64,000 nt of DNA from Lachnospiraceae bacterium (GTDB lineage: Bacteria; Bacillota; Clostridia; Lachnospirales; Lachnospiraceae), in contig JAILAN010000027.1 of NCBI GenBank assembly GCA_024681595.1, forward strand, positions 1 through 64,000, in the 5' to 3' direction. Positions 7,720-12,569 of the stretch are shown in pieces. The notes below the pieces were generated by a model. That model was not told where the DNA came from. It was given only the letters and a program-made list of their open reading frames with translations, and made no database searches. Both the position numbers and the translations under genes were made by a program. Position 1 is the first letter of the stretch, and the number at the start of each line of letters is the position of its first letter.

Positions 7720-7733
7720 ATATTAAACTCAAA

Positions 7734-7804
7734 GCTCCCGATGGGACTTGAACCCATGACCTACTGATTACGAATCAGTTGCGCTACCACTGCGCTACGG
7801 AAGC
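7734..7804 (-). tRNA. tRNA-Thr (anticodon CGT)
   Basis: Cloverleaf on minus strand: GCTTCCG...CGGGAGC acceptor stem; anticodon arm ACTGA-TTCGTAA-TCAGT; TpsiC GGTTCAAGTCC. CCA not encoded. Confidence 0.92.
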
Positions 7805-7846: not shown

Positions 7847-10279
7847 TTACTTTGCCTCTTCAAGAGCTTTTTTAGCTTTTGATAGCTCTTTCTTTTCGTT
7901 TTCAAGGGCGGCCTTAACGCGTTTTTCGGCCTCATTCATCCGTTCAACAGCTTCTTCCATAGCCGCTTTAGCCTCATCGTATTCCAGCTGAGCTATACGT
8001 GCTTCTTCTTTGTATTTTGCTGCATTGGAGTCAGCTATGATCGCTTCTTTTTTCTTTTCGATCTTGTATTTTTCTGTTTCCGTAAAGGGTATATACTTAA
8101 ATACTGCCAGTGACAAAGGAGCGAGTTTTACCTCAATTGAATATGGTCTTCCGTCGGCTTCCTTTTCCGATACGACTTTTGTTCTGGTATTTGTCAGGTT
8201 GCCGCCTCCGAATATTTTATCATCGGTGTTCAGCAATTCTTTGTATTTTCCCGGATATGGAGTCCCGACTGTTATATTTCTTATCACTCCTGCAAAATTA
8301 CATATGACAAGCAGAGTATCCTTATCATTTATTCCTTTTCTCATAAAACTCAGAGTGCATTCATTTGAACTGATGCAGTTGATCCATTCAAAGCCTTCCT
8401 GAGTATAATCAAGTTCATATAATGCTCTGTTAGAAGAATAGAGCTTGTTTAATTCCCTTATAAGGGTTCTCAATCCCTTGTGGGCATTTTTGCGAAGAAT
8501 CCCAAAATCAAGCCGGTAACTTCTACCGAAAACATATTCCGAGCCGAAATCCGGTCCCATCATCAGCATTTTCTTACCGGGATGCATAAACAGATAAGCA
8601 TAGCTCAGTCTCAGATTGGCAATCCTCTCTTCATCCTCTCCGGGCATATTTTGTATAAACGCACCGGTATCCTGTAAAGAATAATTGTATGGAAATCCGC
8701 AGATAAAGTTCTCGGAATACTGATAAACCATGCTGAAAGTCAACTCATTATGATGATGAGCACGGAAATACGGATCATATGAAATATAAGACAGATAATC
8801 ATCCGAAAAACCATTGTTTAACTTATAGTCAAATCCCAGTCCGTCCTCGGATACCGGCACTGTCACACCTCTGTATGCCGCATCATCCTGAGCGATAAGA
8901 ATAATATCCTTATGCTTCTTTTTTAGTACTGAGTTTAAATGCTTGATAAATTCGATACCGTCAAGATTTTCATTTCCACCGTACTGATTAGGCAACCATT
9001 CGCCCTCACCCTTATGGTAATCAAGATAAATCATAGAGGATGTTTCATTGATATAATATCCGTCAAAATGAAACTGTTCTATATAATATAGGGCATTAGA
9101 TATAAGGAACGAAGTTACCTCAGGTCTGGAATAATTGAAATTCAGCGCATCACGTCCCGGATGCGTGGATTTTCTTGAATCAAGATGTTCATAGAGGCAT
9201 GTGCCGTCATAACAGTTAAGAGAATCGTTAGATGCAGAAAAGCATGTGCATCCAAAGTCAAATAAAACTCCTATTCCGTTACGGTGAAGCACATTGACAA
9301 GTTCTTTAAGTGATACTGGTTCAAACAGGACAGATGAAGGTGCATAAAAGAATGCAGCGGGATCTTGGGACGGATGATCGGTAAGACTTTCCGTAAAAGG
9401 AAGAAATTTAACATAGTCATATCCAAAATCCTTGACATGTTTAACTATCCTGTCTGCAAAACTCTTTATATCAGGCAGATCATAGTCATCCGGGCCCAGT
9501 AAAGATTCCGGATCGATCTCACAGACAGACAGTTTATCTTTAATGTGATCGGTACATCCGGATATAAACTCATCATCAGTAAACTCAAAAGCATCATCAC
9601 ATATTACGGAATATGGCCTTCCGTCAATATATCTGATCTTTCTGCTGAACGGATCAGGTTTTATAACAACTGCTCCGCCACGGGTTTTGATCTCATAACA
9701 ATAGCATTCGTCAGTAGATACATGCGGGATAAACATCTCATATATACCGGAATCATCATTCTTATGCATCATATGAAATCCGGATCTGAAATCATTGAAC
9801 GATCCGATAACACAGACTGACAGTGCAAACGGGGCCCACAGAGCGAACCTGACACCCTTTACCCTGTCTGAAATATAAGGAAATGATCCAAAAAGCTCAT
9901 ATGCTTTATACTGAGTCCCGGATATAAAAGAAGAAATATTCTTATCTGAAATGAATTTATGCGAAAATCTGTAAGGATCCTTGTAATTTATCGAACTTCC
10001 GTCTGATAAAATGACTTCATATTCATAATCATAAGTAAGCTTGCCCGGGATTATCTGGGCAAAAAAGCCCATTTCATCAGCCATTTCCATGGCAATTGTT
10101 TTATGTTCACGGTCATTTATCACAAGGTTCATCAAAGTAGCATCAGGAAAAAAGGCCTGGAACAGCGTGCCTCCCGAAACACTATGAGGGCCAAGAACAT
10201 CATAAGGATGTGATTCCTCACGATAAGTAACGGCCTCAATTTCAGGCCAGTTCATAAATTTATAAAGCTTTTTTTTCAT
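7847..10279 (-). CDS. GlgB-family (GH13) protein with substituted catalytic residues and C-terminal coiled coil; putative pseudoenzyme
   Basis: 810 aa; collinear with GlgB (SMIYLDYHKGEGEWLPNQYGGNENLDGIEF, GLGFDYKLNNGFSDDYLSYISYDPYFRAHHHNELTFSMVYQYSENF) but DGYYINETS, ILIAQDDA and GFPYNYSL at the three catalytic positions; Lys/Glu/Ala-rich tail. Confidence 0.85.
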   Translation of the reverse strand: MKKKLYKFMNWPEIEAVTYREESHPYDVLGPHSVSGGTLFQAFFPDATLMNLVINDREHKTIAMEMADEMGFFAQIIPGKLTYDYEYEVILSDGSSINYKDPYRFSHKFISDKNISSFISGTQYKAYELFGSFPYISDRVKGVRFALWAPFALSVCVIGSFNDFRSGFHMMHKNDDSGIYEMFIPHVSTDECYCYEIKTRGGAVVIKPDPFSRKIRYIDGRPYSVICDDAFEFTDDEFISGCTDHIKDKLSVCEIDPESLLGPDDYDLPDIKSFADRIVKHVKDFGYDYVKFLPFTESLTDHPSQDPAAFFYAPSSVLFEPVSLKELVNVLHRNGIGVLFDFGCTCFSASNDSLNCYDGTCLYEHLDSRKSTHPGRDALNFNYSRPEVTSFLISNALYYIEQFHFDGYYINETSSMIYLDYHKGEGEWLPNQYGGNENLDGIEFIKHLNSVLKKKHKDIILIAQDDAAYRGVTVPVSEDGLGFDYKLNNGFSDDYLSYISYDPYFRAHHHNELTFSMVYQYSENFICGFPYNYSLQDTGAFIQNMPGEDEERIANLRLSYAYLFMHPGKKMLMMGPDFGSEYVFGRSYRLDFGILRKNAHKGLRTLIRELNKLYSSNRALYELDYTQEGFEWINCISSNECTLSFMRKGINDKDTLLVICNFAGVIRNITVGTPYPGKYKELLNTDDKIFGGGNLTNTRTKVVSEKEADGRPYSIEVKLAPLSLAVFKYIPFTETEKYKIEKKKEAIIADSNAAKYKEEARIAQLEYDEAKAAMEEAVERMNEAEKRVKAALENEKKELSKAKKALEEAK

Positions 10280-10361: not shown

Positions 10362-10640
10362 ATGAATGCTATGACAGACGAGGAAATTCTTAAAGAATTA
10401 AACAAATATGCAGAAAATGTTCTGGGAGATATCGATCCTCAGAAAACTCCGGTTTCCACGCAGCTTGACAAGCTAAAACCCAAAATGGAGGAACTGGCTT
10501 TAAAAAGCGGTCTCAGTGTTGAAGATATCTTTATACGATATATGGACCTGGCTTCAACTCAAAAGGTCAAGATGGAACAGAATTTTAAGGATACGATGGA
10601 GCGCGCCGGAGTTACTGATCTTGGTTCCCTGCCCTATTGA
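10362..10640 (+). CDS. hypothetical small protein
   Basis: 92 aa (or about 89 from the second ATG) plus-strand ORF in a gap between minus-strand genes; helical, charged composition; no clear Shine-Dalgarno. Confidence 0.6.
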   Translation: MNAMTDEEILKELNKYAENVLGDIDPQKTPVSTQLDKLKPKMEELALKSGLSVEDIFIRYMDLASTQKVKMEQNFKDTMERAGVTDLGSLPY

Positions 10641-10655
10641 TATTCATTAAACAGT

Positions 10656-10681
10656 GAAAGGCTAACGTATGTTAGCCTTTC
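10656..10681. terminator. Bidirectional terminator-like hairpin
   Basis: GAAAGGCTAAC-GTAT-GTTAGCCTTTC perfect 11-bp stem between converging genes; overlaps the last codons of the minus-strand GGDEF gene. Confidence 0.6.
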
Positions 10682-12569
10682 CTTTGAATTCTTTTTTATT
10701 CTCATACATTACTGTATCTGCTCTTTTAAATACATCTGAAAGATTCTCATCTTTATTATTCTGATATAACGCCATTCCAAATGCTATTGAGACTTTTTTC
10801 CATCTTTCAATATCCTGTATGGCCAGATCATCCATTCTGTCATTAAGTTCTATCAAAAGACTGTTTCTATCATCATAATCCTCACCCTTTAGTATAGTCA
10901 GGAATTCATCGCCTCCGATCCTGAAAACCGGGCTGTGCTTGAAAATATTGCATAACATTTTACAAGAATTGATGATATAGGAATCTCCATATTCATGTCC
11001 GAATTCATCATTAACTGCCTTCAGACTGTTGATGTCAAAGATAACTACAGCAAAATCTTCACATGATCTGTTAAATATCTGAGAATTGATTCTCGAAGCC
11101 ACAGAATCGTAAGCAGTTCTGTTCTTTACCCCTGTAAGCGGATCGGTTTCATTAATAATCTTTAATTTATTATTTAGATAATTGGCCAGCAGGTTTTTAC
11201 GGTATTTAATGAATATCGAATTGAGTCTCTGTTCATATCTTACAAGATTATTGTTCTTATCTATCTCATCAACAATATCACGGAAAACAAAATAACCCAT
11301 TGTCCTTTCATTATCATGAAGCGGCATAAAGATATAGGTATGATTTTCATCTGAATTGTCATCAATATTGGGAACAAGCTGTCTGGTTTCGAAATTGGGA
11401 TTAAAGCTGATCCGACCATCATTCATGGAAAAGATGTCAAACATATAATCCGAGTAACCCTCCTGACGAAGAGTGATGCTCTCGTCATAAACGGAATTCT
11501 CATAATCGGGTTCAAGAAGTATATGCATATTACCTTTTTCAAACTCTGAATTCACGCCGAAAAAAGACGAAAGTGAACTGTATATATCTATAAATTCGAG
11601 ACCTGATAAAAGCGCCGCATCAAGAAAGTTGAGCTTGGTTGCAAAATTATTTGCGATCAGTCTGTCAACAAAAAGTTTATGACCGATATCACGTCTGGCA
11701 GAATTGGCTATTTCACTGTCTGTTATTGACTCTGTACTTTCTCTGTTCTTTAAAACACAGGGTATTATCCTGGCTGAGGGAACAGTTTTACCGTTAATTG
11801 AATCTATGATGATCCTTACGGAATCACAGCCTATGGTTTCAAAATTTTGGCTGACTGTGGTAAGTGTCGGGTCAAACAATGCAGAACTGTATGTATCATC
11901 AAATCCCGTAACATAAACATCATCCGGGATCCTGTATCCGTTCTTTTGTAACTCACTCGCGGCAAAAATAGCAAGGCCGTCATTAGCGCACATGAAAGCA
12001 TCCGGCAGTTCTCTCCCGGATTTGATATATTCATTTATAAATCGAGCTGAAGAGGTCAGATCCCAGTTAGTATAAAAGATATCATCTGAATCAAATTCTT
12101 CGAAGGTGTCAGAAATTGCTTTTGCACGCAACAAAGAATCAGGGTGATTAGCAGAACCAGCTAAATAGAATACTTTTCTGATTCCATGAACATTTTTAAG
12201 ATTCTCGCACAACTGTTTCATCCCGTTATAATTGTCCGGAGTAAGGAAGTAACCGTAATCGGGTTTCCGGCCACAGCTTACAGTTGGGATATGTGCGTCT
12301 TTACAGGATTTTACCAAAGACTCGAATGCATCATCATGATCGATAGAATTTCCGAAAATTATGGCGCCGTCAAAATCATCCAGTACCGGCAGTTTGAATA
12401 TATTAAGTTCTCCTCTGGCAGAAGTAAGTGCATCCGTTAATAAAGGAAAACAAAGAAACAGGTAAACATCAGCATTTAAATCCTTTATACCGTTTGCAAC
12501 ACCGGACATGAACTGGTTCATGATCTCTGAACCCCAGCCAGCTCCAAAAACTGCTATCTTTTTTTTCAT
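10662..12569 (-). CDS. LacI-type periplasmic-binding-like domain fused to GGDEF diguanylate cyclase
   Basis: 635 aa; N-terminal LacI/PBP1 fold (PDAFMCANDGLAIFAASELQKNGYRIPDDVYVTGFDDT) without HTH or signal peptide; middle GAF-like region; C-terminal DPLTGVKNRTAYD...FRIGGDEFLTIL. Confidence 0.85.
   Translation of the reverse strand: MKKKIAVFGAGWGSEIMNQFMSGVANGIKDLNADVYLFLCFPLLTDALTSARGELNIFKLPVLDDFDGAIIFGNSIDHDDAFESLVKSCKDAHIPTVSCGRKPDYGYFLTPDNYNGMKQLCENLKNVHGIRKVFYLAGSANHPDSLLRAKAISDTFEEFDSDDIFYTNWDLTSSARFINEYIKSGRELPDAFMCANDGLAIFAASELQKNGYRIPDDVYVTGFDDTYSSALFDPTLTTVSQNFETIGCDSVRIIIDSINGKTVPSARIIPCVLKNRESTESITDSEIANSARRDIGHKLFVDRLIANNFATKLNFLDAALLSGLEFIDIYSSLSSFFGVNSEFEKGNMHILLEPDYENSVYDESITLRQEGYSDYMFDIFSMNDGRISFNPNFETRQLVPNIDDNSDENHTYIFMPLHDNERTMGYFVFRDIVDEIDKNNNLVRYEQRLNSIFIKYRKNLLANYLNNKLKIINETDPLTGVKNRTAYDSVASRINSQIFNRSCEDFAVVIFDINSLKAVNDEFGHEYGDSYIINSCKMLCNIFKHSPVFRIGGDEFLTILKGEDYDDRNSLLIELNDRMDDLAIQDIERWKKVSIAFGMALYQNNKDENLSDVFKRADTVMYENKKEFKGKANIR

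Follow-up and report, generated by a model that had tools for sequence, protein, structure and literature searches.

Why would a bacterium keep a glycogen branching enzyme gene whose catalytic site has been taken apart? This question is raised by a locus in a member of the Lachnospiraceae from gut or rumen, a 64,000-nucleotide stretch of whose DNA (hereafter the window) was analysed here. Pseudoenzymes of glycoside hydrolase family 13 (GH13) are known; no report of a pseudoenzyme among bacterial branching enzymes was found in open-licence PMC full texts. An earlier note on this DNA, made from the letters alone, described a GlgB-like gene with all three catalytic carboxylates replaced by near-isosteric amides and proposed that it had been selected for a non-catalytic role. 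The span given in that note was right and the strand was missing from it: the gene is encoded by the minus strand, where analysis of the open reading frames of the window finds an ATG-initiated frame of 810 codons plus stop (10279..7847), frame 1 of the plus strand being closed over the same interval.

Membership of the GlgB family, which had been proposed from collinearity, is borne out by domains, family models and predicted structure alike. The protein has the CBM48, the GH13 barrel, the all-beta C-terminal domain and the overall fold of a branching enzyme (Table 1). Its score against the NCBIfam branching-enzyme model TIGR01515 is 516 bits for a cut-off of 464, so that automatic annotation would label it a branching enzyme; the Pfam alpha-amylase barrel model gave no match to it at E ≤ 1. 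The AlphaFold model (mean pLDDT 83), a check that the earlier note had proposed, keeps the GlgB fold (3k1d, TM-score 0.90 on the target), the top Foldseek matches of the model are branching enzymes, and so are the nearest solved structures, at ~31% identity. Model confidence falls below 50 only in two active-site loops (residues 422-434 and 576-597) and at the extreme C-terminal end. Residues 734-809 are modelled as a single helix, and the tail has a heptad-like period (p = 0.002 by comparison with shuffled sequences). This predicted coiled-coil tail is retained in the genus of the window organism. The tail is not coiled-coil-like in every long GlgB homolog, that of locus L011 being K/P/A-rich.

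Alignment to GlgB of E. coli K-12 (from NC_000913, the reference for residue numbering) shows that seven of the eight active-site residues are replaced, among them the nucleophile, the acid/base and the transition-state stabiliser (D405N, E458Q and D526N). The motifs and codons that had been reported for these (9047-9049, 8888-8890 and 8684-8686, for N411, Q464 and N532) are exact, as are the exchanges of arginine (R403 to Y409) and histidine (H525 to Y531) for tyrosine; the losses of H340 and Y300 come in addition. Because all eight positions are invariant in 162 of 162 intact GlgB rows, the substitutions in the window protein are far beyond chance variation. A catalytic D/E/D intact elsewhere in the protein had been named as a way in which the claim could fail, and no substitute acidic triad was seen in the alignment of the window protein. 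From established GH13 chemistry it is close to certain that the protein lacks branching activity, and with its family fold and replaced catalytic residues it answers to the description of a GH13 pseudoenzyme.

Table 1. Features of the long GlgB-like gene, its product and the adjoining tRNA gene, in window coordinates
Feature	Position	Strand	Basis or remark
tRNA-Thr, anticodon CGT	7733-7804	-	Between pseudo-GlgB and argH, about where relatives have MscS
Long GlgB-like pseudoenzyme gene (predicted)	7847..10279	-	810 aa + stop; own Shine-Dalgarno-like GAGG upstream; TIGR01515
N1 domain (GlgB_N), residues 1-110	9950..10279	-	PF22019
CBM48, residues 111-215	9635..9949	-	PF02922
GH13 (beta/alpha)8 barrel region, residues 216-628, with the replaced catalytic site	8396..9634	-	Alignment and fold model
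C-terminal beta domain, residues 629-730	8090..8395	-	PF02806
C-terminal tail, residues 731-810; helix 734-809, heptad period, predicted coiled coil	7850..8089	-	
F164, aligned with W159 of glucan site IV on CBM48; still aromatic	9788..9790	-	Alignment
D306, position of E. coli Y300	9362..9364	-	Alignment
D341, E. coli D335, sole one of the eight active-site residues kept	9257..9259	-	Alignment
C346, position of E. coli H340	9242..9244	-	Alignment
Y409, position of E. coli R403	9053..9055	-	Alignment
N411, position of nucleophile D405	9047..9049	-	Alignment
Q464, position of acid/base E458	8888..8890	-	Alignment
Y531, position of E. coli H525	8687..8689	-	Alignment
N532, position of transition-state stabiliser D526	8684..8686	-	Alignment
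F592, position of donor-chain site I W586	8504..8506	-	Alignment; PMC10254366
W632, glucan site VI W628	8384..8386	-	The same in every row, intact or degraded

The gene is neither a sequencing error nor a recent pseudogene. The same paralog with substituted sites recurs in five further genomes of the genus, which excludes an artefact, and the dN/dS pattern and an open-frame simulation described below speak to the same end. All six genus genomes examined have both the long paralog and a canonical GlgB, the coexistence that the earlier note had proposed to check. The long copies have whole reading frames, are 43-70% identical and form one supported clade (100/99). In the genome of the window the canonical enzyme, with all eight active-site residues, is encoded elsewhere (G000:C3:3529-5415). 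This canonical protein has a K/T/A-rich N-terminal extension (L253:3376-5415, G000:C3), and the genes downstream of it resemble, on a reading of their sequences only, those for a flagellar hook-associated protein and flagellin.

A conserved N/Q/N triad can be ruled out. Where intact enzymes read YDHRDEHD at the eight positions, the window copy reads DDCYNQYN and the other five DDCCNGSD, DDRNNEHS, YDHKDNHE, YDHRDNHE and YDTKDDHH; the corresponding triads are N/Q/N in the window copy, N/G/D and N/E/S in relatives at 70% and 62% identity, and D/N/E (twice) or D/D/H in the rest of the genus. Comparison of the six sequences thus points to the absence of a complete site, not to the amide set, as the conserved property, and the active site is free to vary in this genus, since the substituted sets differ between closest relatives. 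Each of the six genomes also encodes one glycogen synthase and two or three phosphorylases (two in the genome of the window). The window organism therefore seems to possess the components of a glycogen cycle, and with canonical GlgB, synthase and phosphorylases present the long copy should be dispensable for branching.

Against its nearest relatives the window gene has a dN of 0.24-0.31 with saturated dS (>2 where computable); the canonical GlgB genes of the same genomes have a dN of 0.07-0.09. In a simulation without selection, none of 400 copies of an 810-codon frame was still open at 0.1 substitutions per site. Together with the open frames in all six genus genomes, a dN well under saturated dS means that the paralog has been retained by purifying selection over a long time. 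Conservation is uneven along the protein: identity between the two closest species is 65% in N1, 58% in CBM48 (the least conserved segment), 69% in the barrel, 79% in the C-terminal domain and 84% in the tail (the most conserved). Of the residues that are near-invariant among intact long copies, the degraded copies have lost 49 of 133 in the barrel, 2 of 29 in CBM48 and none in N1 (0/9) or the C-terminal domain (0/12). The proposal of a selected non-catalytic GlgB thus holds in so far as the pseudoenzyme has been kept as a protein by selection, but not for the N/Q/N set itself; likewise the random decay that was to speak against it is found at the active site but not in the rest of the protein.

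Part of what has been kept is a potential glucan-binding surface. Of the surface glucan-binding sites described for E. coli GlgB (PMC10254366), site IV on CBM48 retains an aromatic residue (W, F or Y) in 39 of 39 degraded rows and site VI its tryptophan in all 39, whereas loss or variation affects sites I, VII and XII, the donor-chain sites close to the cleft. The site VI tryptophan, W628 in E. coli, never varies in any row, intact or degraded, and may for that reason be kept on structural grounds.

The long gene sits in a conserved gene neighbourhood. In Lachnospiraceae the block containing it reads serC-serA-DUF1015-glgB-mscS, and at 148 of 186 loci the next gene after long glgB, on the same strand, encodes MscS; the two are usually no more than a few tens of bases apart and often overlap or abut (loci L057-L139 and L169-L248, e.g. 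L073 and L197). The window locus has serC, serA, a small opposite-strand gene and glgB, followed by tRNA-Thr and argH; DUF1015 and MscS are absent, and no other glycogen gene is adjacent. The shared syntenic position supports orthology of the degraded and the intact long copies. The latter (e.g. L008-L016 and L058) are ~38-44% identical to the window protein, share its order of domains and mostly end in a K/E/A-rich tail; unlike the window copy they have all eight active-site residues and usually an MscS gene after them.

Loss of MscS was considered as a correlate of lost catalysis and dropped. Loci with and without the MscS neighbour number 15 and 13 for substituted copies and 111 and 15 for intact ones, raw counts that give a Fisher p of 1e-4; no support is left when the pairs compared are phylogenetically independent (median p 0.63), and the correlation is therefore not claimed. 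The MscS domain occurs once per genome in nine genomes checked, and in two of these (G013 and G009) the single copy adjoins glgB. It is possible that the glgB-mscS arrangement links glycogen branching to osmotic control; no report of a GlgB-MscS operon or of such a link was found in open-licence PMC papers. Two further neighbours deserve mention. A minus-strand gene at 10662-12569 encodes a LacI-type sugar-binding domain fused to GGDEF, possibly a sugar-sensing diguanylate cyclase, and such a gene lies upstream of pseudo-GlgB in three genus genomes (G000, G001 and G002). The small plus-strand gene at 10362-10640 encodes a 92-aa protein with no Pfam match; at 60 loci it is conserved between serA and long glgB, on the strand opposite to them.

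The loss is not peculiar to one genus. Of 134 GlgB rows surveyed in Lachnospiraceae and neighbours, 107 retain the full set of eight residues, and one to seven of these are missing from the other 27; the final set comprised 162 intact and 39 substituted rows, the latter representing 34 distinct sequences. Syntenic long GlgB is mostly intact across the family. A tree of the 134 rows, from a quick search with SH-aLRT support only and with L135 and L136 (which lack a conserved histidine) scored as intact, has at least seven changes between intact and substituted labels on well supported branches, which suggests that catalytic loss in long GlgB arose several times independently in Lachnospiraceae. 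In these two proteins (from G069 and G333) D/E/D is intact and the histidine before the last D is I or V; they sit on a long stem within a degraded clade, a malQ-like gene follows theirs, and they are possibly intermediate stages of site loss. A canonical GlgB with a full site is likewise encoded by each of the 24 further genomes of the survey that carry a substituted copy, one of these canonical sequences being a fragment cut at a contig edge before the tyrosine. Cultured carriers of substituted copies exist (Butyrivibrio sp. NC2002, LC3010, AE3009 and VCD2006, and strain 1XD8-76), and all five have a canonical GlgB as well; the four Butyrivibrio strains maintain an A-or-S/K/E set at 60-88% identity. 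For eight sampled genomes it is certain that the long copy is the sole GlgB (G020, G029, G135, G151, G210, G240, G282 and G311), and its site is intact in every one of them, a number too small for a firm statistic.

How does the window protein compare with known systems? With bacterial GlgB (GH13, EC 2.4.1.18; structures from E. coli, Cyanothece and M. tuberculosis) it shares the N1-CBM48-barrel-C-domain order and sites IV and VI; it differs in its replaced active site, in the loss of donor-chain site residues and in a coiled-coil tail of ~75 residues. As a working model the nearest is plant isoamylase 2 (ISA2), the non-catalytic partner of ISA1 (PMC12510319), likewise a GH13 storage-glucan paralog with several catalytic residues replaced that selection has kept beside an active paralog. 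As expected of an ISA2-like protein, the window copy has a presumably active paralog in its genome and has kept glucan-surface residues. However, ISA2 belongs to the debranching family, is found in plants and has one old origin, whereas the present case concerns the branching-enzyme family in Lachnospiraceae, has several origins and has a putative partner only. In alpha-amylases of the BmaN1 group (PMC5347038) a catalytic residue is also substituted, but there the triad keeps its D and E, His replaces the transition-state Asp alone, and activity is retained; the window protein has lost all three carboxylates. That a GH13 enzyme with one aberrant triad residue can be active is relevant to lightly substituted copies such as L111 or L081, and hardly bears on the window copy.

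We consider it probable, though by no means assured, that the window gene encodes a branching-dead GlgB pseudoenzyme kept as a glucan-bound accessory, scaffold or regulatory subunit. Such a protein would dock on glycogen through CBM48 and the C-terminal surface sites, its predicted coiled-coil tail may dimerise or recruit a partner, and, by analogy with the role proposed for plant ISA2, it would serve canonical GlgB or other glycogen enzymes as a non-catalytic scaffold or regulatory subunit, the canonical GlgB of the same genome being able to supply branching. Several observations sit uneasily with this: no domain differs more between the two closest species than CBM48, W628 may be structural, the gene is not beside other glycogen genes, and not every long homolog has a coiled-coil-like tail. 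The same retention of binding-surface residues without a catalytic site would also suit a competitive regulator, which would set chain length by slowing down canonical GlgB, GlgA or phosphorylase, either through binding to outer glucan chains or as part of mixed oligomers; we think this quite unlikely, and by sequence it is inseparable from scaffolding.

Slow decay, in which canonical short GlgB took over, selection relaxed, the site eroded first and a functionless gene is heading for loss, would explain why the substituted residues differ between close relatives, why the dN of canonical GlgB, over the same pairs of genomes, is only about a third as large and why the site is intact wherever the long copy is certainly the sole GlgB. 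We nevertheless regard it as unlikely: frames are whole in all six genus species, dN is well below saturated dS, the Butyrivibrio set is maintained and every simulated run without selection closed the frame, and decay is further weakened by the domain-specific pattern, with erosion almost confined to the barrel and the tail and C-terminal domain best conserved. Alternatively, a rebuilt pocket might carry out another reaction or bind another sugar. The sugar-binding/GGDEF gene upstream in three genomes, the single substituted set of Butyrivibrio and the low-confidence active-site loops of the model are compatible with a changed catalyst or sensor, but the genus has conserved no new set of acidic or nucleophilic residues and those of the pocket vary between closest relatives, which makes this decidedly improbable.

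Beyond the window, a wider reading, tentative and somewhat doubtful, is that Lachnospiraceae have repeatedly and independently made an MscS-linked second GlgB into a non-catalytic glycogen scaffold, complexed with canonical GlgB or other glycogen enzymes, as a bacterial counterpart of ISA2. Since TIGR01515 passes substituted copies, branching activity may be overestimated when CAZymes of rumen and gut Lachnospiraceae are counted or their metabolism is modelled. Why non-catalytic paralogs of starch enzymes such as ISA2 are kept has been stated as not understood (PMC12510319). Several independent losses within one protein family, with intact sister genes and cultured carriers, make this retention question accessible to experiment, and if the scaffold reading is true, they would amount to a natural experiment, run in replicate, on the reasons for keeping dead glucan enzymes.
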